DNA of 64,000 nt from contig NZ_CAMZOK010000002.1 in assembly GCF_947331465.1 (NCBI RefSeq), positions 558,001 to 622,000 on the forward strand. Reading direction: 5' to 3'. Positions 28,510 to 37,846 of this stretch are shown piece by piece (position 1 is the stretch's first letter; each line of letters starts with the position of its first letter). A model generated the notes under the pieces. The model saw nothing but the letters and a program-made list of their open reading frames with translations, did not search any database and was not told the origin of the DNA. Made by a program: the position numbers and the translations under genes. Source of the stretch: Shimia sp. Alg240-R146 (GTDB lineage: Bacteria; Pseudomonadota; Alphaproteobacteria; Rhodobacterales; Rhodobacteraceae).

Positions 28510-28586
28510 GCCGCCTTAGCTCAGTTGGTTAGAGCACTGGTTTGTGGAACCAGGGGTCCCCCGTTCGAGCCGGGGAGGCGGTACCA
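28510..28586 (+). tRNA. tRNA-His (GTG anticodon)
   Basis: A 77-nt cloverleaf: acceptor GCCGCCT/AGGCGGT, D stem GCTC/GAGC, anticodon stem CTGGT/ACCAG with loop TTGTGGA (anticodon GTG), T stem CCCCG/CGGGG, then A73 and an encoded CCA. Position 1 is G opposite U72, and there is no G-1:C73 pair, the idiosyncratic alphaproteobacterial form read by a modified HisRS. Confidence 0.97.
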
Positions 28587-28867: not shown

Positions 28868-31225
28868 ATGTTCCACCCTGCGACAATTCGAAATACGCGT
28901 GCCGGACTTTTGGGGGCGTTGTGCCTGTTGCTGGCCATTGGCGGCAACAGCGGGTCTTTTCGTGTCTCTGCAGATGTGGATCCTCTGAATGCGCCATATG
29001 AATTGGTGCCATTCTCTGGCGACGCGACACTGCGTGATTTCACAGCCGAGCATCTGAACGATCCGGACCTTTGGCCAACCGTGTTGCGGCTGAACGATTT
29101 GGCGTCGGTCGCGGATTTATCGCCCGGAACAGTATTGCAGTTACCGGTCGTGCAGGTGGCCTTGGCAGATGAGGCTTTGGCCATGTCACTTACGGCGATT
29201 CAGAAAGCCACAGCCGAGGGCGCGCGGCTGTTTGCGCCGCGCCAAATTGGCGACGCTATTTCGGATCGGGACACGGCGGTGACACGGCGCGGCGAAGGCG
29301 AATGGCGGCAAGTGGTAAATTTCGCAGGCTCCAGCACCGACCATGCAGTGGAGGCCTTTGAGATTGCAGTGGCACAGCGCGACCGCGCGGCGGAGGCGTT
29401 GATTACAGACATCCATGGCCGCGTAGAAGGCCGAGACCCGGCAGAGGCAGCTTGGTCTGATCGGGCGCTTGACGACATTTTGGTGGAATTTGAAAGAGTG
29501 CGCACGCTGACCAACTCCACCACACAAGTGACCTTTCGCGACCTAAGCCGGTTGCGGCTTAATCCGAACTCGAATGCTACGATTCAACGCATGCGGTCGG
29601 ACCCGCTAACGGGCAAAGAAGTCACCAAAGTCAGCCTGCAGAGCGGCGATTTTTATGCGCTGCTCAATCAGTTGTCTGATCAGGACAGCTTTGAAATCGA
29701 CGTGCCCGGCATTCAGACAACCACCGAAAGCGATGATTTCTGGATCAAGAAAGAGGACGACAGCGCTCTGTTTGTGAACTACGACACGGCGGCTCTGGAC
29801 ATCGAAAGCGGTACTGCAAAGGTGTCGCTCGGGCAGGACGAGGGTGTCGTGATCACCGATGGCGGTGTTACGGCGCGGGCGGAAGTTCTGGAGCGCACGG
29901 TGTTGTCAGCACCAGCCGACAAGTCCGAAGTCTTCGGACGTGCGGTTGATCTTAGCTGGCGGGCGTTTCCAGAGGCCAGCGGCTATTGGTTTGAGGTTGC
30001 GGGCGATCCGGGCTTCAACCAGATGATCACCACCGAATGGGGCGTTAAGGACACTGGATTTCGTGTCGAAGCCTTGATCCCTGGCGTACATTTCTGGCGT
30101 GTTGCGGCGCTGGATAAACTGGGTTTGCCCGGTAAATGGTCCGAAACCAGCGCCTTTGAGCTGCGCATTGACGAGACACCGCCGTTCTTGACCATCTTGG
30201 CACCGCAAGAAGCCACGCTAGTGGAAAGTGACGCGATCGAGGTCTTGGGAGCGGCCGAGGCCGGCGTGATGCTGACGCTCAATGGCGCACCTGTGAAGAT
30301 GTCAAGTGATGGCAGCTTTGTCATGCAAGCCCCTTTGAAGGTTGGAGAAAATCAATTGGTGCTTGTGGCGCTGGATGCCGCTGGCAACCGCTCCGAAAAG
30401 CGTAGGACGGTGACCTATGTCCGGCAGGAAGCTGTACAGATTGATTTGGACGCTGGTCTTGCGCGACAAGGAGATTTGCTGGTTAGCCGCACACCGGAGC
30501 TTACAGTTTTGGCCGCGACCTCGGCGCCGGCGGGATTGGACGCGGTGTTGCGCGATGACGTGGGCGCAGAGATCGGCCGCACACGCACAGGCGCCGGCGG
30601 TCGGCTCGCCATGTCGGTGCCGGTGGGACCACAACCACAAGGCTATCGCTTTGAAGTGGTGTCGTTGGCGGGTCGTTTGGTTGGCGAGTTGGCGTTCTCC
30701 GTGCAATTGGACACGCAAGCGCCAGAGATCGTTTTGGACGTGCCACCACCGCGCGCCACGTCAGAAGAAACGCTGGATTTGACTGGGGTTTTTGGCGACG
30801 CCGTGAGCTTGAAGCTCGACGGTCAAGCGCTTGAGATGTTTGATGATTTCTTTGCCACTCAAATTGCGTTGACGCCCGGGCGCAACGCTTTTGAGTTGAG
30901 AGCTGAAGACGCTGCAGGAAACGTCGGCGTTCTGGCTGTGGAAACGCTTCTGGATCTGGAACCGCCAGAAATCACGTCTGCGGACATGCAGCGGCCCAGC
31001 GGGGAATCGGGGCCGATTGAAATTGTGGTGACAGCAACAGATGAAGGCGGTCTGCGACAGGCCGCGCCTTATCTGGTGGAAGTTGGGGATGCGGAATTTG
31101 AAGGGTATTTGCGCTGTGACAGCCGCGCGGGTGTCTGTCGCGCAAGTTTGCCAGCCTCGCAAGGTGAGATGAGTTTGATCGAAGTGATCGTGCAGGATTA
31201 CGCGGGCAACGAGGCGTTCCGATGA
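28868..31225 (+). CDS. Exported LysM/FecR-domain protein with Ig-like repeats
   Basis: A 785-residue exported protein. A signal peptide or anchor covers about residues 8-36. Residues 40-98 look LysM-like (DLWPTVLRLNDLASVADLSPGTVLQLP); about 215-290 resemble a FecR domain (TQVTFRDLSRLRLNPNSNATIQRMR then VSLQSGDFYALL). Residues 345-440 are a fibronectin-like module (PEASGYWFEVAGDPGFN), and about 450-785 are Ig-like units ending in AAGN or YAGN turns. The ribosome-binding site AGGGGG is 5-6 bases before the ATG. It opens a three-gene operon with a PKD protein and an adenylate cyclase. Probable cell-wall or surface scaffold. Confidence 0.82.
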   Translation: MFHPATIRNTRAGLLGALCLLLAIGGNSGSFRVSADVDPLNAPYELVPFSGDATLRDFTAEHLNDPDLWPTVLRLNDLASVADLSPGTVLQLPVVQVALADEALAMSLTAIQKATAEGARLFAPRQIGDAISDRDTAVTRRGEGEWRQVVNFAGSSTDHAVEAFEIAVAQRDRAAEALITDIHGRVEGRDPAEAAWSDRALDDILVEFERVRTLTNSTTQVTFRDLSRLRLNPNSNATIQRMRSDPLTGKEVTKVSLQSGDFYALLNQLSDQDSFEIDVPGIQTTTESDDFWIKKEDDSALFVNYDTAALDIESGTAKVSLGQDEGVVITDGGVTARAEVLERTVLSAPADKSEVFGRAVDLSWRAFPEASGYWFEVAGDPGFNQMITTEWGVKDTGFRVEALIPGVHFWRVAALDKLGLPGKWSETSAFELRIDETPPFLTILAPQEATLVESDAIEVLGAAEAGVMLTLNGAPVKMSSDGSFVMQAPLKVGENQLVLVALDAAGNRSEKRRTVTYVRQEAVQIDLDAGLARQGDLLVSRTPELTVLAATSAPAGLDAVLRDDVGAEIGRTRTGAGGRLAMSVPVGPQPQGYRFEVVSLAGRLVGELAFSVQLDTQAPEIVLDVPPPRATSEETLDLTGVFGDAVSLKLDGQALEMFDDFFATQIALTPGRNAFELRAEDAAGNVGVLAVETLLDLEPPEITSADMQRPSGESGPIEIVVTATDEGGLRQAAPYLVEVGDAEFEGYLRCDSRAGVCRASLPASQGEMSLIEVIVQDYAGNEAFR

Positions 31226-31241
31226 GAGGGCTGAGGTGGGG

Positions 31242-34200
31242 ATGATTGGGATGATGCAACGCATGATGCGTATTTGGGTAGCTGTGGTTTTGGCGCTGAG
31301 CGGTGAGGCCGTCAGAGCGCAAGACACGGCTGCACCCGTGGATCAGGGTCTTTTGGTCGTCTACGGCGTTCTCGCGCCAACGCGTGAAGGCGATATTGAT
31401 CACCGCGAAACCATTTTATTTAGTGTTCCCCGTAATTTACGCGACCGAATTTATGTACGGATTTTTGATCCAGAGATGAACGGTGCGCATGATTTCAGCT
31501 ATGGGCGCTATGGCAACACAGAGACAATCTATCGGGTGTTTGGTGGCGACGGTGCTCGTACTGGCATTGAGATGCCGGTGCCGGTCTCAGACGGCGCGCG
31601 ACCACAAAAGGTAAAACGCGCCGCGCTTATGGCACCTCGGTCCGGAGACGTCCTGCGAGAGGCCACGTTTGTCGCTGACAAGAAAACCGATGGGCAATGG
31701 GTGTCGCTCGGATCGGTGCGGGCCCGCCAAGGTGAGATCATTGGCGACCGCGCTTGGTTTCGCCTCGAAGTCCTTGGGGCGGATGGGGACGACGGCAACG
31801 GGTTCAACGTGGATGTGAGTCTCGCGCGCGATGTGCATCGCCGACCCGACGGGCTTGTGATGGAAGCGTATCAGCCAACCATTCGTTGGCCTGGTGACGG
31901 TGTCGGCACAAGGGTTGAGCTGTTGAACCCCACAACCGGCCCCCTGACGGTGCAAAATTTTGACGGCGCGGCAGGCGATCTGCGTCTGAACCGTATGTAT
32001 TCTGACATGCGACTGCGGGCGTCAGGCCAGAACGTCTGGAGCTCGGAAGAAGTATCGCCTGGTGAGGATTTGCTTGCCATCACCTTGCGTGGCGGGTTTG
32101 AAACCCCCAATGATGTGACCCTGTCGGTGTTCGATCAAACAGGCACTGCTTTGCCAATCCTGATGCCACCCCGACAAGCCCCAGTGCCGGAACGCCCCGA
32201 CGCTTTGCCGCGCGCGCGGGAATTGGCGGACTGCCGGTCGGTGGCCTTTGATGGCAGCCATGACGGCGCGGATCCATTGCTGGCCTATATGTGGGACTAC
32301 GGCGATGGTGCAACCGGCGCGGAGCCGGTGAGCGCCTATGGCTACAGCACACCTGGCAAGTATGACGCGCGCCTGCGCGTTCTGTTGCCCGGTACGCGCG
32401 CAGCACGCGGGGCTGAGGCCACGGCACCCGTGCACATCCGCAAAGCACCGGTTGCAATGGCAGGTCAGGACATAACAGTGGCACCGGGCGATGTGGTGGC
32501 TTTTGACGGTGGCAGCTCAGTTCCCAGTGACAGCCCGATCACCCGCTATGTTTGGACCTTCGGTGATGGCGCCGCGGTTGAAGGCGCGGCTGCCGAACAC
32601 GTCTATGGTCAGGCGGGGGCTTATCGGTCGGTGTTGCGGGTGTCTGATGGCAGCAGTCATCCCTGCAACTTTGGCGTGGCAACGCGCTTGGTGACTGTGA
32701 ACGCAGCGCCAGTTGCCGAGGCGGGCACGGATCAAAGCACTATCGTGGGCCGTGCTGTGACGCTGGATGGCGCTGCCAGCTATGATGTGGACGGCACCAT
32801 TGGCGCCCACGTCTGGGAGATGGGCGACGGGACAACGCTCGACGGATCGCGGGTGACGCATGTCTATACCGAGCCCGGGGTATACACTGTGGCGCTTGCC
32901 GTGACCGACGACAGCGGGGTTGCCAATGCAACGGCTATGGATCGTTTGACCATTCGGGTGAACGCGCCACCGGTGCCGGTGATCGAAGGCCCGTCAGAGC
33001 CGGTTGCGGTGGGCGAAGCCGTTGTGCTTGATGGCAGCGGGTCGCGCGATGCGGATGGCGTGATCTTGAGCCATTTGTGGGATTTCGGCGATGGCTCGAT
33101 CGGCGAAGGTGAGATGGCCGAATACGCTTGGGCCAAACCAGGCGTTTACCGCGTGGTACTGGCAGTGACCGACAATTCCGGCACCACGTCGGCCACTCAA
33201 CAGGTGGCCTATGAGGTGATCGTCAATACGCGACCCGTGGCCGACGCCGGAGCGGATCAATTTGTGACAGCATCAGATGTGCAGTTTGACGGTGGCGGCT
33301 CTCGCGATATCGACGGGCAGATCGCGCAATACCTTTGGGACTTTGGCGATGGACGCACCGGACAGGGACCACGCCCTGTGCACAGCTTTGCACGGCCCGG
33401 CACTTATGATGTGGCTTTGACCGTGCAGGATGACAGCGGTGCGCCACAAAGCACCCATCGCGACACGATGAAAGTGGTGGTGAACGCCGCGCCAATTGCG
33501 GATGCCGGTCCTGCATTGACGGTGGCGCCGGGCGAAGAGTTTGTGCTGGATGCGGGGGCGTCACTTGATCCCGACGGTCGGGTGGTCGATTACGTCTGGT
33601 CGTTCACGGATGGCAGCTCCAAGACCGGCGTGCGCGCGGCGCACAGTTTTGATCAACCGGGACTGCATCGCGTGATGCTTGCCGTGACCGATGATTTTGC
33701 GGGCGGCGGCGCGGGTGACGAAAGCGAAGTGTTGATCACGGTCAACGATCAGCCTGTGGCTGTTGCAGGCCCCAATATTCGCGTGGCACCAGACGAAAGC
33801 GTGTCTTTTGACGCAACCGGATCCTTTGATCGCGACGGTCAATTGACGGGTTACAGTTGGGAATTTGACGATCTGCAATCCCCGCTTGAGGCCAGTGTTG
33901 TCGAACGCGCGTGGCCATCGGCCGGCGTGTTCAACGCCCGCCTTGTGGTGCGCGATGACAGCGGCGTTGCCAATGCGACAGCCCAAGACAGCGTTGTCAT
34001 TCAGGTCAACCACCGTCCCGAAGCCGAAGCAGGTCCTGTAATCGATACCGACCAGTTGCTCGTGACACTGGATGCGGGCGGCTCAAGCGACGCGGATGGG
34101 GACAACCTTGTCTATCAGTGGGACTTTGGCGACGGATCGCGTCCGATGTTTGGTCGTGAAGTGGCGCATGTGTTCCCAAGGGCCGGGCGCTTTCCTGTGA

Positions 34201-36119
34201 CGTTGCGGGTGGACGACGGTTCGGGCCTCAGCAATGCCAGCGATATTGACGCCACCACAGTGATCATCAACGCGGCACCTGTGGCACATGCCGGTGGCAA
34301 CCGTGATGTGTGTTCAGGCGAGTCGATCCTGTTTGATGCGTCTCAAAGTGCGGACGCGGATGGCGATCTGTTGCAGTACAACTGGAACTTTGGCGATGGT
34401 ACGTGGTCTGACATCATCAACCCGACCAAGACCTATGAAATGCCGGGCACCTATCCGGTGACATTGTCGGTGGCGGATGAAAGCGGTTCAAGCCGTGGCA
34501 GCGATCGCGACCGGATTGCGGTGATTGTGCAAGAAGGGCCTATTGCCAACGCGGGGCCTGATATGCGGGTGTGCGTCAATCAAGAAGTGCGCATGGATGG
34601 CAGCGGCTCCACCGATGCGGATGGATCGGTGAATGGCTATGAGTGGACCTTTGGCGATGGCAGCCGCGCAAGCGGCGCGTCGCCGGTCAAAAGTTTTGAA
34701 CGCGCTGGCACCTATTCCGTGACTTTGACCATAACGGGCGACGCGGTTGGTCAATGCAGCCCGCTGGACACAGACACCGTGACGGTCGAGGTGCTGCCTG
34801 CGCGCAGCCAAACGATTGTGGCCGTCGACCGCGCACCGGTCGGCGAGGCGGTCGCGTTTTCAGCCAAACTGGGCGAGGCCGCAGGAACCGGCGATCCAGT
34901 GGCGTTTGACTGGCAGTTTTCCGACGGTGCAAATGCGTCAGGACAAAACGCCAGCCATGTGTTTGATGCCCCGGGTGAATATCTGGTGACATTGACCACC
35001 AAACTTGAGGGCGGCACGCAGGACTGCGGGCAATTGGTCAGCCGCCACAAGATTGTTGTTAACGCAGCGCCCCAGCCCGCGATTGATGGACCCGAAAGCG
35101 TCGCAGTGGGCGCGTTGGTGTCGTTTGACGCTGGTGGGTCGCTCGATCAAGACGGGGTGATCACGCGCTACTTGTGGGACTTTGGCGACGGCAACACGTC
35201 GACTGGGGTTGCTGGACACCACCGCTATGAAAAGGCCGGCACCTATGCGTTGACCCTTGAGGTTGTCGACGATGCGGGCGTGGCCAATTCGGTCGCGGTG
35301 GCGGCGCGGCAGGTCACGGTCAATCCGGTGCCGATTGCCGGGTTGGATACGCCGCCCGCGCTCTGTGCGAACACTCCACGCAGCTGGCAAGTGACTGCGG
35401 CGGAGGGTGTCGCGGTCAACTGGGCGTTTGGCGACGGGCAGACCGACACCGGGGTCGCGGTGGAGCATGTCTTTGCCAAGCCGGGGCTTTATCCTGTGGC
35501 GGTGACCACAGATGACGGGCGCGGGTTGGCGAATTCGGTTTACCGCGAGGAGGTATACGCGCGCGTCAATGCGGTGCCGGAGGCTGATGCGGGGCCGGAT
35601 CGTGTGGTCTGTCCCGGTGAAGACGTGGTTTTCAGCGCCGGTGGGTATGATGCGGATGGCAAGATCACCAACCACATCTGGACATTCTCGGACGGTGTGG
35701 AACTGCGCGGAGCCGAAGTGACACGCAGCTTTGGCGTCACAGGCCCGGTTGATGTGACCCTGAGCGTTGTCGATGATAGTGGTGCAACCTGCAACACAGG
35801 TCAGGACATGGCGCGGGTTCTGGTTAACAGCGCGCCGGTTGTGGATGCCGGGGCGCACCAATCAACGCCAGTTGGTGCCGCACACGATGTGCTGCGGTTT
35901 GACGCCAGTGCTGCGCGTGATCCGGACGGGCAGGGGCTGTTGATCAATTGGGACTTTGGCGATGGCACCAGCCTGTCTGGTGCTGTGGCGCGGCACCGTT
36001 ATGCCAGTGCGGGGGACTATACGGTCACAGTAACCGCACGAGACAGCAGCGGGCTAAGCTGTGGTGTCAGCACAGACACGGCGCTGATCAAAGCCACCGC
36101 GCGTGAAGGCAGCAATTGA
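31242..36119 (+). CDS. Giant exported PKD-domain protein (15 PKD-like repeats)
   Basis: About 1,625 residues. Start chosen at ATG 31242 with GAGG 5 bases upstream; GTG 31236 and ATGs at 31251 or 31254 are alternatives. A signal peptide follows (MMRIWVAVVLALSGEAVRA). Roughly the first 330 residues form an unrecognised N-terminal domain. The rest is 15 PKD-like domains of 80-95 residues with the WDFGDG core, VxFDGSxSxDxDG start and PGxYxVxLxVxDDSG end; several are degenerate (for example EFDDLQSP). No membrane anchor or sorting signal is seen at the C-terminus. The stop overlaps the adenylate cyclase start by one base. Confidence 0.85.
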   Translation: MIGMMQRMMRIWVAVVLALSGEAVRAQDTAAPVDQGLLVVYGVLAPTREGDIDHRETILFSVPRNLRDRIYVRIFDPEMNGAHDFSYGRYGNTETIYRVFGGDGARTGIEMPVPVSDGARPQKVKRAALMAPRSGDVLREATFVADKKTDGQWVSLGSVRARQGEIIGDRAWFRLEVLGADGDDGNGFNVDVSLARDVHRRPDGLVMEAYQPTIRWPGDGVGTRVELLNPTTGPLTVQNFDGAAGDLRLNRMYSDMRLRASGQNVWSSEEVSPGEDLLAITLRGGFETPNDVTLSVFDQTGTALPILMPPRQAPVPERPDALPRARELADCRSVAFDGSHDGADPLLAYMWDYGDGATGAEPVSAYGYSTPGKYDARLRVLLPGTRAARGAEATAPVHIRKAPVAMAGQDITVAPGDVVAFDGGSSVPSDSPITRYVWTFGDGAAVEGAAAEHVYGQAGAYRSVLRVSDGSSHPCNFGVATRLVTVNAAPVAEAGTDQSTIVGRAVTLDGAASYDVDGTIGAHVWEMGDGTTLDGSRVTHVYTEPGVYTVALAVTDDSGVANATAMDRLTIRVNAPPVPVIEGPSEPVAVGEAVVLDGSGSRDADGVILSHLWDFGDGSIGEGEMAEYAWAKPGVYRVVLAVTDNSGTTSATQQVAYEVIVNTRPVADAGADQFVTASDVQFDGGGSRDIDGQIAQYLWDFGDGRTGQGPRPVHSFARPGTYDVALTVQDDSGAPQSTHRDTMKVVVNAAPIADAGPALTVAPGEEFVLDAGASLDPDGRVVDYVWSFTDGSSKTGVRAAHSFDQPGLHRVMLAVTDDFAGGGAGDESEVLITVNDQPVAVAGPNIRVAPDESVSFDATGSFDRDGQLTGYSWEFDDLQSPLEASVVERAWPSAGVFNARLVVRDDSGVANATAQDSVVIQVNHRPEAEAGPVIDTDQLLVTLDAGGSSDADGDNLVYQWDFGDGSRPMFGREVAHVFPRAGRFPVTLRVDDGSGLSNASDIDATTVIINAAPVAHAGGNRDVCSGESILFDASQSADADGDLLQYNWNFGDGTWSDIINPTKTYEMPGTYPVTLSVADESGSSRGSDRDRIAVIVQEGPIANAGPDMRVCVNQEVRMDGSGSTDADGSVNGYEWTFGDGSRASGASPVKSFERAGTYSVTLTITGDAVGQCSPLDTDTVTVEVLPARSQTIVAVDRAPVGEAVAFSAKLGEAAGTGDPVAFDWQFSDGANASGQNASHVFDAPGEYLVTLTTKLEGGTQDCGQLVSRHKIVVNAAPQPAIDGPESVAVGALVSFDAGGSLDQDGVITRYLWDFGDGNTSTGVAGHHRYEKAGTYALTLEVVDDAGVANSVAVAARQVTVNPVPIAGLDTPPALCANTPRSWQVTAAEGVAVNWAFGDGQTDTGVAVEHVFAKPGLYPVAVTTDDGRGLANSVYREEVYARVNAVPEADAGPDRVVCPGEDVVFSAGGYDADGKITNHIWTFSDGVELRGAEVTRSFGVTGPVDVTLSVVDDSGATCNTGQDMARVLVNSAPVVDAGAHQSTPVGAAHDVLRFDASAARDPDGQGLLINWDFGDGTSLSGAVARHRYASAGDYTVTVTARDSSGLSCGVSTDTALIKATAREGSN
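32229..36063 (+). repeat. Fifteen tandem PKD coding repeats
   Basis: Fifteen diverged units of about 240-285 bp. The nucleotide word for WDFGDG recurs near the middle of most units. Units differ enough at DNA level that they look old, unlike recent copy-number expansion. Two units (the eleventh and thirteenth) lack the DxDG signature. Confidence 0.8.
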
Positions 36120-37846
36120 TGCGTTTCCCGCTACCGCTCAAGTTCTTCCTGTTTGCAGCACTTGTGGCTGTGGTGCCTCTGGCGTTGGTGGGGGAAAACT
36201 TGGTGCGGATCGCACGCGATGAACTCAAAAGCGCCGTGAACGAAGACCTGACAGGGGTCGCCGCGCAGGTACGCAGCGAGTTTGACAGTATGTATCAAGG
36301 GCGTTGGCTTGCGCCTTTGATGGTGATCCGCTCCGGCGTGGACAATCCGGATCTGGATGTGGCGCAAAAGGTCTCGCTGCTGACGCAGGGCATGGAGCAA
36401 TTGGAAGGGGTCGTGGCGCTTCAGTTAAGCGTTGAAGGCTCTGATATTCCCATGGTGGTAAGCGATCAGACTTTTGGCGAAGCGCTTGCCGCAGAAGGGC
36501 TGGATCCGGTAACCACTCTGGCTGCGAGCCCGGAACTGATCGCCAACATCAAAGGCACTGGCCAATTTGGCCGCCCGCTGATCAGCCAGATACGGGAAAC
36601 CGGTGATTGGGTGGCAACATTGGCGCTGCCGATGGACAGCAAGATCGCGGGGCGGGATCTGACCTTGGCGGCGCGGATCAACCTTGGTGCTTTGCGGCGC
36701 ACAGTGTCGCGCCATCCGTTTAACCAACGTGGTGAGATCACCATCGTGGATCACGCTGGCCGCACGGCTTTGGTGGACGAGCCTGAGGTGATGAACCAAC
36801 GCGCAATTGTGGCCTCGGCCATGCCGCTGATTGTGGCGGGCGCGCGGGCCGATGCGCTTCAGACCTACACGCGGCCTGACGGCACAGCGATGCTGGGGGC
36901 TTATGCCTTTCCCGAATGGTTTCCCTGGGCTGTTATTACCGAGTTGAGTGAAGAAAGCGCCTATGCGGTGATCGCGGAAATGATGCGTCGCATTGTGATG
37001 GTCGGTGCGCTGGGCTTTGCCGCGGCGTCGGTTGCGGCGCTGATTTTCTCCAAGGGCCTGACCGGACCAATCCTGAAAATCGGGCGCGTGGCGGACGCGA
37101 TTGGCGAAGGGGATTACAGCGCGCGCGTGGACAAAGTCAAAAGCCGCGACGAGATCGGCGATCTGGCAGCGCGGGTGAACACCATGGCGGGCCAGCTTAG
37201 CGAACGGATGGAGTTGATGAAATTTGTCAGCCACGAAACCGTGTCCGCCATTCAGGCCCGTGACGGCGCAGGCATCCGGCGCGGCGGAGAGCGGCGTGAG
37301 GTGACAATGCTGTTCTCTGACATTCGCGGCTATACTGCGTTTTCGGAGACTGTGACACCGGAAGAAGTGATCGAGGTGCTGAACCGCTATTTCGAGATCC
37401 AGTCAGCCATTGTCGTGCGCCACGGCGGAGACATCGACAAATTTGTCGGCGATGAATTAATGGCAATGTTTGTGGGCGAGGACAAAGAAGACCGCGCCGT
37501 GCGCTGCGGTGTCGAAATCAAGGAAGCGCTGGCCGAGAGCTTTGGCGCCCAAACAGGCCGTGAATTGGCTGTGGGCATCGGCATTGCGTCTGGCGCGGTG
37601 GTGCTTGGCGCAATGGGCGCGCGGGAACGGATGGACTACACCGTGCTGGGCTCCACCGTGAACCTTGCTGCACGCCTGTGTTCCAAAGCAGGCCCATGGG
37701 AGGTGCTTGTAGATCGCGCCACAACGGATTTGGTGGATGAAGGCGTCGATTTGGACCCGCGTCCTGCGGTTGACCTCAAAGGTTATGCCGATCCGGTGCC
37801 AGTCTATCGCGCGTCATTCAGCGAAGAAGAAACACTGGCTGTCTGA
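36119..37846 (+). CDS. Membrane adenylate cyclase, class III, with periplasmic sensor and HAMP
   Basis: A 575-residue signalling enzyme making cAMP from ATP. Start: ATG 36119, sharing one base with the PKD gene stop. Transmembrane helices at about 9-26 and 290-312 flank a periplasmic sensor domain of about 260 residues (Cache-like). HAMP covers about 311-365. The cyclase domain has metal ligands Asp401 and Asp445, specificity Lys441 with Thr508 in the partner position, and transition-state Asn515 and Arg519. The Lys/Thr pair is that of class IIIb adenylate cyclases. As last gene of the FecR/PKD operon it may sense the state of that envelope structure. Confidence 0.92.
   Translation: MRFPLPLKFFLFAALVAVVPLALVGENLVRIARDELKSAVNEDLTGVAAQVRSEFDSMYQGRWLAPLMVIRSGVDNPDLDVAQKVSLLTQGMEQLEGVVALQLSVEGSDIPMVVSDQTFGEALAAEGLDPVTTLAASPELIANIKGTGQFGRPLISQIRETGDWVATLALPMDSKIAGRDLTLAARINLGALRRTVSRHPFNQRGEITIVDHAGRTALVDEPEVMNQRAIVASAMPLIVAGARADALQTYTRPDGTAMLGAYAFPEWFPWAVITELSEESAYAVIAEMMRRIVMVGALGFAAASVAALIFSKGLTGPILKIGRVADAIGEGDYSARVDKVKSRDEIGDLAARVNTMAGQLSERMELMKFVSHETVSAIQARDGAGIRRGGERREVTMLFSDIRGYTAFSETVTPEEVIEVLNRYFEIQSAIVVRHGGDIDKFVGDELMAMFVGEDKEDRAVRCGVEIKEALAESFGAQTGRELAVGIGIASGAVVLGAMGARERMDYTVLGSTVNLAARLCSKAGPWEVLVDRATTDLVDEGVDLDPRPAVDLKGYADPVPVYRASFSEEETLAV

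Follow-up and report, generated by a model that had tools for sequence, protein, structure and literature searches.

A 64,000-nucleotide stretch of Shimia sp. Alg240-R146 (contig NZ_CAMZOK010000002.1, positions 558,001 to 622,000; hereafter, the window) contains three adjacent plus-strand genes encoding a FecR/Ig-like protein (gene 1), a protein with fifteen PKD repeats (gene 2), and a transmembrane receptor cyclase (gene 3). Our analysis indicates that these genes probably constitute one envelope-sensing cassette. The cassette is rare and patchy, yet spread over several phyla. Its constant part is the sensor of the receptor plus the PKD protein, nearly always accompanied by the FecR protein, and its variable part is the output enzyme. 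These observations bear on a suggestion in an earlier note on this DNA, namely that the cyclase reports the state of an extracellular or wall-bound structure made of the other two proteins. The suggestion is supported in part, by the co-inheritance of the genes and by the exchange of outputs on a conserved input.

Co-inheritance and distribution of the gene set

The sensor, the PKD protein N-terminus and the FecR part were used as separate queries against 295 genomes of the family, with up to 6 or 7 candidates scored per genome, and each search recovered the identical 16 genomes. The genes are adjacent in 15 of these and split over two contigs in the remaining one (L067, L068). The odds of obtaining the same 16 of 295 by random choice are near 1 in 10^26; since the genomes are related, these odds speak for inheritance as a block and not for independent events. 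Within the genus (25 genomes, including that of the window), a full-length receptor orthologue was present in 14 genomes, and only pieces of it in G023. The three genes stand together and in the same order in 13 of the 14, one of them (L040) with a single in-frame stop in the PKD gene. In G023 only remnants of the cassette are left, bordered by the same flanks on the GNAT side and the RluD side (L046), a sign of decay of the whole set.

A scan of named genomes with the sensor alignment, one genome per species, resulted in 63 loci. FecR, PKD and receptor genes lie on one strand in 49 of them, in the order FecR-PKD-receptor in 47 and receptor-FecR-PKD in two (Ignavibacteriales L120 and Thiocystis L131); the PKD frame is broken in L088 and L094, which are counted among the 49. 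Seven further loci, from Rhizobiales, encode two PKD proteins; each of the seven genomes also has a FecR gene, which stands directly upstream at the four loci read (L132-L135). Contig ends cut six loci, five of which show the end of the PKD gene, while L118 begins at the contig edge with the receptor. A deletion remnant (L078) keeps pieces of FecR and PKD. The earlier note had named, as outcomes contrary to its reading, a lack of co-occurrence in other genomes or a cyclase found mostly alone. Instead, all three genes are held by the same 16 of the 295 family genomes, and a receptor standing alone with room for partners was seen at none of the 63 loci.

Pairwise distances of the three proteins correlate with r of 0.92-0.98 over 33 loci (of 37), values that shared ancestry alone can give. 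Two further searches for the N-terminal head of the PKD protein, in the class of L120 and in the order of L131, detected it in 4 of 149 and 4 of 109 genomes, respectively, the centre genome being included in each case.

Repeat number and receptor output

Fifteen PKD_4 stretches of gene 2 score above the Pfam cut-off (999 bits for the protein), and a PKD_4 search of the genome recovered fifteen places, every one within this gene. Before about residue 313, no Pfam family was found among those listed at E<=0.1. These data agree with the initial description of a 1,625-residue protein with 15 PKD repeats and an unrecognised N-terminus.

A profile built from the repeats of the window protein counted 15 repeats in all 30 full-length proteins; this set includes the window protein and reaches from Shimia as far as Ignavibacteria and Thiocystis. 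This count considered frames over 1,500 residues only, leaving out L043, L046, L067, L068 and the stop-split L040. Repeat spacing is mostly as given in Table 1, although in some proteins the profile places the starts of repeats 11-14 less consistently. At other loci, considering open frames of at least 700 residues with at least five repeats, the counts were 15 (53 frames), 7 (12), 20 (11), 11 (2) and 10 (1); the 53 frames include four loci under two identifiers, and four of the seven genomes with the 7 plus 20 form were counted twice. This form is that of Rhizobiales, in which each of seven genomes encodes two proteins with the PKD head, one of 7 repeats and about 960 residues and one of 20 repeats and about 2,130 residues (loci L115, L117, L119, L121, L122, L126 and L129, and L132-L135). 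The remaining odd counts correspond to contig-end cuts (L110, L114, L141) or to a stop in L088. Seven more loci contributed six frames of 15 repeats and the contig-cut L162, with 12. Of 89 listed homologues, 83 have 1,603-1,646 residues and six are shorter, in a listing that considers only 0.55-1.75 times the query length.

The repeats also correspond by position. In a repeat-by-repeat comparison with 7 of the 29 other proteins, all 15 window repeats had their best match in the equally numbered repeat when set against any of three proteins from the family. Repeat proteins often gain and lose copies. That the number fifteen is maintained in Roseobacters, Ignavibacteria and Thiocystis alike therefore suggests selection on length itself.

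The output of the receptor varies. The alignments covered 49 of the 60 PKD-head stretches and 44 of the 63 receptors from the named loci, together with those of the window, and Pfam matches at E<=0.01 in the 45 aligned receptors revealed HAMP in 45, a cyclase domain in 42, SpoIIE in two and GGDEF-EAL in one. Inspection of individual loci identified receptors of the HAMP-SpoIIE type (L139, L123), of the HAMP-GGDEF-EAL type (L136, L164, L165) and of the HAMP-HisKA-HATPase type, the latter beside a gene for a response regulator-SpoIIE protein (L138, L160, L162); the cyclase output is retained in L137 and L159. The sensor halves of all ten receptors are related by profile. A dCache_1 match is listed for six of them (L138, L139, L123, L137, L162, L164) and is not listed for L136, L159, L160 and L165. 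Two genomes (G353 and G784) carry two cassettes each, one with a cyclase and one with a kinase. In a tree of the FecR proteins, the three rows with GGDEF-EAL output fall into one supported group and the two kinase rows into another. Conservation of the input half while the output differs is expected if the FecR and PKD proteins feed the sensor, and so favours a role for them as input partners.

At three loci with an output other than a cyclase, the PKD gene is followed by a gene that begins with a WGxRGSxP-type motif (L123 537-1571, plus strand; L138 2862-3842, minus strand; L160 13287-14252, plus strand); by eye, its product resembles a hydrolase of the metallo-beta-lactamase fold.

Features of the three window genes

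A scan for open reading frames (ORFs) of the window showed the three genes to be co-directional and adjacent (Table 1), with 16 bp between genes 1 and 2. Genes 2 and 3 overlap by 1 bp if gene 3 starts at the ATG at 36119 (TGATG), or by 4 bp with the TTG at 36116. The spacings of 16 and -1 bp reported at the outset are thus in agreement with the frames and start codons.

Table 1. Features of the cassette in the window (positions are those of the window)
Feature	Position	Strand	Basis
Gene 1, FecR/Ig-like protein, 785 residues, probably exported	28868..31225	+	ORF, Pfam
Gene 2, 15-PKD protein, 1,625 residues from ATG, probably exported	31242..36119	+	ORF, PKD_4 stretches
Gene 2, N-terminal region (about residues 28-313), probably two beta-sandwich domains	31323..32180	+	
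Gene 2, fifteen PKD repeats, start-to-start mostly 86-88 residues	32178..36119	+	repeat profile
Gene 3, transmembrane receptor cyclase, 575 residues (576 from TTG 36116)	36119..37846	+	ORF, Pfam, AlphaFold2
Gene 3, periplasmic Cache-like sensor, about residues 28-291	36200..36990	+	weak dCache_1, hydrophobic windows
Gene 3, HAMP linker, residues 311-361	37049..37201	+	Pfam HAMP, 46.3 bits
Gene 3, class III nucleotide cyclase catalytic domain, residues 393-555	37295..37783	+	

Gene 3 matches HAMP and Guanylate_cyc above their Pfam cut-offs, and its AlphaFold2 model has a predicted local distance difference test score (pLDDT) of 85.3. Hydrophobic stretches near residues 1-32 and 291-311 bound the sensor, in keeping with the sensor of about 260 residues and the HAMP domain described in the earlier note. 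The catalytic part has the class III cyclase fold, and the active site that the same note had called intact and of class IIIb is complete in the window protein (D401, K441, D445, T508, N515 and R519), including both metal-binding aspartates of class III cyclases (D401 and D445). Among the 45 aligned receptors, D401 is found in 45, D445 in 43, and K441, N515 and R519 in 42 each; position 508 is T in 42 and S in three. K441 and T508 correspond to the purine pair typical of class IIIb, and N515 and R519 to the transition-state pair. By this residue pattern the product would be cyclic AMP (cAMP) rather than cGMP; the best fold matches also include a guanylyl cyclase, Cya2 (2w01). In the genome of the window, eight places match the receptor query.

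As to the Cache-like assignment of the sensor, dCache_1 (PF02743) scores 15 bits in the window receptor against a curated cut-off of 45 bits; at E<=0.01 it is found in 27 of the 45 receptors, with a best score of 42.8 bits, under the cut-off, and precomputed PF02743 annotations are present on 21 of 120 listed homologues. The AlphaFold2 secondary structure, read by eye, fits a long N-terminal helix followed by two PAS-like lobes, and the rows of the fold search all correspond to the cyclase domain. No CHASE2 match is among the families found for the 45 receptors at E<=0.01.

For gene 1, Pfam identified FecR (36.2 bits, cut-off 24) and the Ig-like Glucodextran_B (66 bits), in accordance with the FecR and Ig domains first read from the letters. 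FecR occupies residues 210-300, with Ig-like repeats toward the C-terminus and a LysM-like segment at about residues 45-95. Orthologues share 46-92% identity, and a FecR search of the genome recovered a single place. The LysM domain proposed for this protein has no Pfam match in the window protein even at E<=1, and 2 of 17 members of the protein family match at that threshold. Nevertheless, the proposal is probably right, because two of eight distant orthologues exceed the LysM cut-off of 20.9 at the same N-terminal place (28.3 and 25.6 bits). As judged by eye from their N-termini, the products of genes 1 and 2 are probably exported; a hydrophobicity scan (threshold 1.6) detected no hydrophobic stretch in either protein, signal peptides included.

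A tRNA-His gene lies on the plus strand at 28510-28586, about 280 bp upstream of gene 1. A tRNA-His gene was also found in L031, L034, L037, L041 and the remnant L046, so that, with the window, six of the 15 stretches scanned from the genus contain one. It is upstream of the cassette or its remnant in all six, about 2.4 kb away in L037 and nearer elsewhere. This position suggests that the tRNA gene may be an old entry site.

Proposed mechanism, alternatives and related systems

We propose the following scheme. Judging by their families, the product of gene 1 would be exported and held to peptidoglycan via its LysM-like segment, and that of gene 2 would be exported and form a rod, of constant length and headed by two beta-sandwich domains. 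Through a putative contact with the receptor, both proteins would signal to the Cache-like domain whether a wall or surface structure is assembled, occupied, stretched or broken. HAMP would then relay the state of the sensor to the cyclase dimer, with a consequent change in cAMP. A possible receiver is a pseudo-ATP-binding cassette (pseudo-ABC) protein with a C-terminal cyclic nucleotide (cNMP)-binding domain; in many Roseobacters its gene follows the cassette, and in the genome of the window it lies at a different place. In its most specific form, the scheme would describe a new class of transmembrane sensing systems. The PKD rod, its length quantised at 15 repeats (or 7 plus 20), would serve as a molecular ruler or strain gauge from the wall to an outer structure. 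A conserved Cache-like receptor would read this rod, and its output would have been exchanged among cAMP, two-component, PP2C-type phosphatase and cyclic di-GMP signalling, with the cAMP version ending in the pseudo-ABC protein. We consider this form rather unlikely.

The pseudo-ABC gene, of about 1,025 codons, is found downstream and on the same strand at 24 of the 63 named loci. The scanned copy (L081) contains an ABC membrane region and the C-terminal cNMP-binding domain. By eye, the Walker motifs of the pseudo-ABC protein look degenerate. At E<=1e-30, a match was present in 15 of the 16 cassette genomes vs 52 of the 279 others (Fisher p 8e-10, kinship ignored), and nine of the 16 have the gene next to the cassette. 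The genome of the window has its copy on a different contig, beside ketoacyl-synthase and MaoC-like genes (within L143 330-6068, minus strand). In a tree of 40 homologues aligned over >700 residues, this copy belongs to a fully supported group of five, together with the copy that adjoins the cassette in Shimia biformata, and is separate from the group of second copies. Ketoacyl synthase and MaoC-like neighbours were also seen by eye in L144 and L146, a hint of a lipid role. The cNMP-binding family PF00027 was found at three places in the genome: this protein, a 256-residue frame and a 612-residue frame. The last starts with the cNMP-binding domain and lies at positions 1 to about 460 of the window (minus strand), cut by the left edge and about 28 kb from gene 1. 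Taken together, the sequence data make the pseudo-ABC protein a possible, although not a probable, cAMP receiver for the cassette.

Several observations weigh against a single sensing unit with this receiver. In G005 (L043/L078) the end of FecR and almost the entire PKD gene are deleted; the receptor is full length and open. The kinase cassette of G784 (L160) has the PKD protein and the receptor kinase, and no FecR was found in the stretch. At a locus from the order of Thiocystis (L163/L166), PKD and FecR genes are followed by a response-regulator-like gene with, by eye, a kinase-type C-terminus, and no such sensor was found nearby. The set is also rare: with the top five candidates scored per genome, the PKD head was detected in 2 of 385 sampled genomes of the class of the window, both of its own genus. 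The positional match of repeats drops to 5-11 of 15 against four distant proteins, although the mean score of same-number repeats is still higher there than that of other pairings. As to the receiver, the pseudo-ABC gene is present in the 52 cassette-free genomes mentioned above, and its cassette-type neighbours are kept, by eye, in four of five cassette-free stretches read.

Three other explanations were weighed. The cassette might be an adhesion or matrix device, in which rod and head bind a polysaccharide or another external surface and the receptor reports occupancy. This is the envelope-sensing explanation with a named stimulus, with which its probability overlaps; in this specific form we consider it somewhat unlikely, as none of the 14 commonest flank clusters (ORFs of at least 110 residues, most of them unannotated) was recognised as export machinery or an outer-membrane anchor, and fold matches are too weak to single out a ligand.

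Alternatively, the receptor may sense a small ligand alone, genes 1 and 2 being the controlled structure, that is, targets within the same operon and not the input. Cache-like domains usually bind small molecules, and stretches internal to the sensor, such as TGDWxATLALP, are well conserved. In S. meliloti, the FecR-domain gene smc02177 is reported to be a target of the cAMP pathway and dispensable for signal perception (PMC5498481). On the other hand, partner genes are kept beside four types of output enzyme, and a cAMP target gene has no obvious reason to accompany a histidine kinase or a cyclic di-GMP (c-di-GMP) enzyme. Moreover, the amino-acid-binding motif RxWY was not found in the sensor. 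Altogether, this alternative appears quite unlikely. Finally, mere conserved synteny, with genes travelling together without joint function, would fit the vertical relatedness of many loci, a patchy distribution expected from block transfer and the tRNA-His gene noted above, but is highly improbable given that gene order varies (receptor first in L120, L131, L159, L164 and L165) and that flanks change across phyla while the set remains together.

The proposed envelope-sensing cassette resembles several known systems. Regarding the FecI-FecR-FecA signalling system, the FecR domain is shared, but here it is part of a long Ig-like protein without a hydrophobic window above 1.6 (in a scan that also missed signal peptides), and the cassette itself has no gene for a sigma factor or a TonB receptor, its flanks not being annotated gene by gene. 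CyaC of S. platensis and CyaB of P. aeruginosa share the catalytic fold and residues, but have other input domains, in contrast to the Cache-like and HAMP domains with conserved partner genes found here.

Parallels are also provided by clusters of CHASE2 receptors. FecR-domain proteins are clustered with CHASE2 adenylate cyclases in Campylobacterota (PMC9239204), and smc02177 lies near cyaD1 and clr in S. meliloti (PMC5498481). As in the cassette, a receptor adenylate cyclase is encoded with an exported FecR-domain protein; the sensor is CHASE2 there and Cache-like here, and the Campylobacterota clusters contain a phosphodiesterase and a TPR protein in place of the PKD rod. A PKD protein is not mentioned in the accessible text of either source. 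The BiofilmReg operon of Burkholderiales, consisting of a response regulator, the LysM/FecR protein COG4254, a CHASE2 histidine kinase and DUF4136 (PMC5192318), likewise places an exported LysM/FecR protein beside a transmembrane receptor, and relatives of the cassette (L138, L160, L162) also use a histidine kinase. It differs in its CHASE2 sensor and, in the strains listed, in its kinase output, and the word PKD is absent from PMC5192318. The statement in the earlier note that no characterised system has this composition has to be trimmed accordingly, since FecR proteins with CHASE2 cyclases or kinases have been published; of the FecR/PKD/receptor-cyclase set itself, no description was found in the open-licence literature. 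What is new here is the PKD rod of fixed repeat number, the Cache-like receptor and the swapped outputs.

There is a real chance that the fixed-length rod makes this FecR-linked envelope receptor something new. For the genome of the window, in which the cyclase query has eight matches and PF00027 was found at no more than three places, the analysis also points to a candidate receiver of cAMP. More generally, a rod of fixed length coupled to a receptor with four signalling currencies provides a testable model for how bacteria may measure their own envelope.

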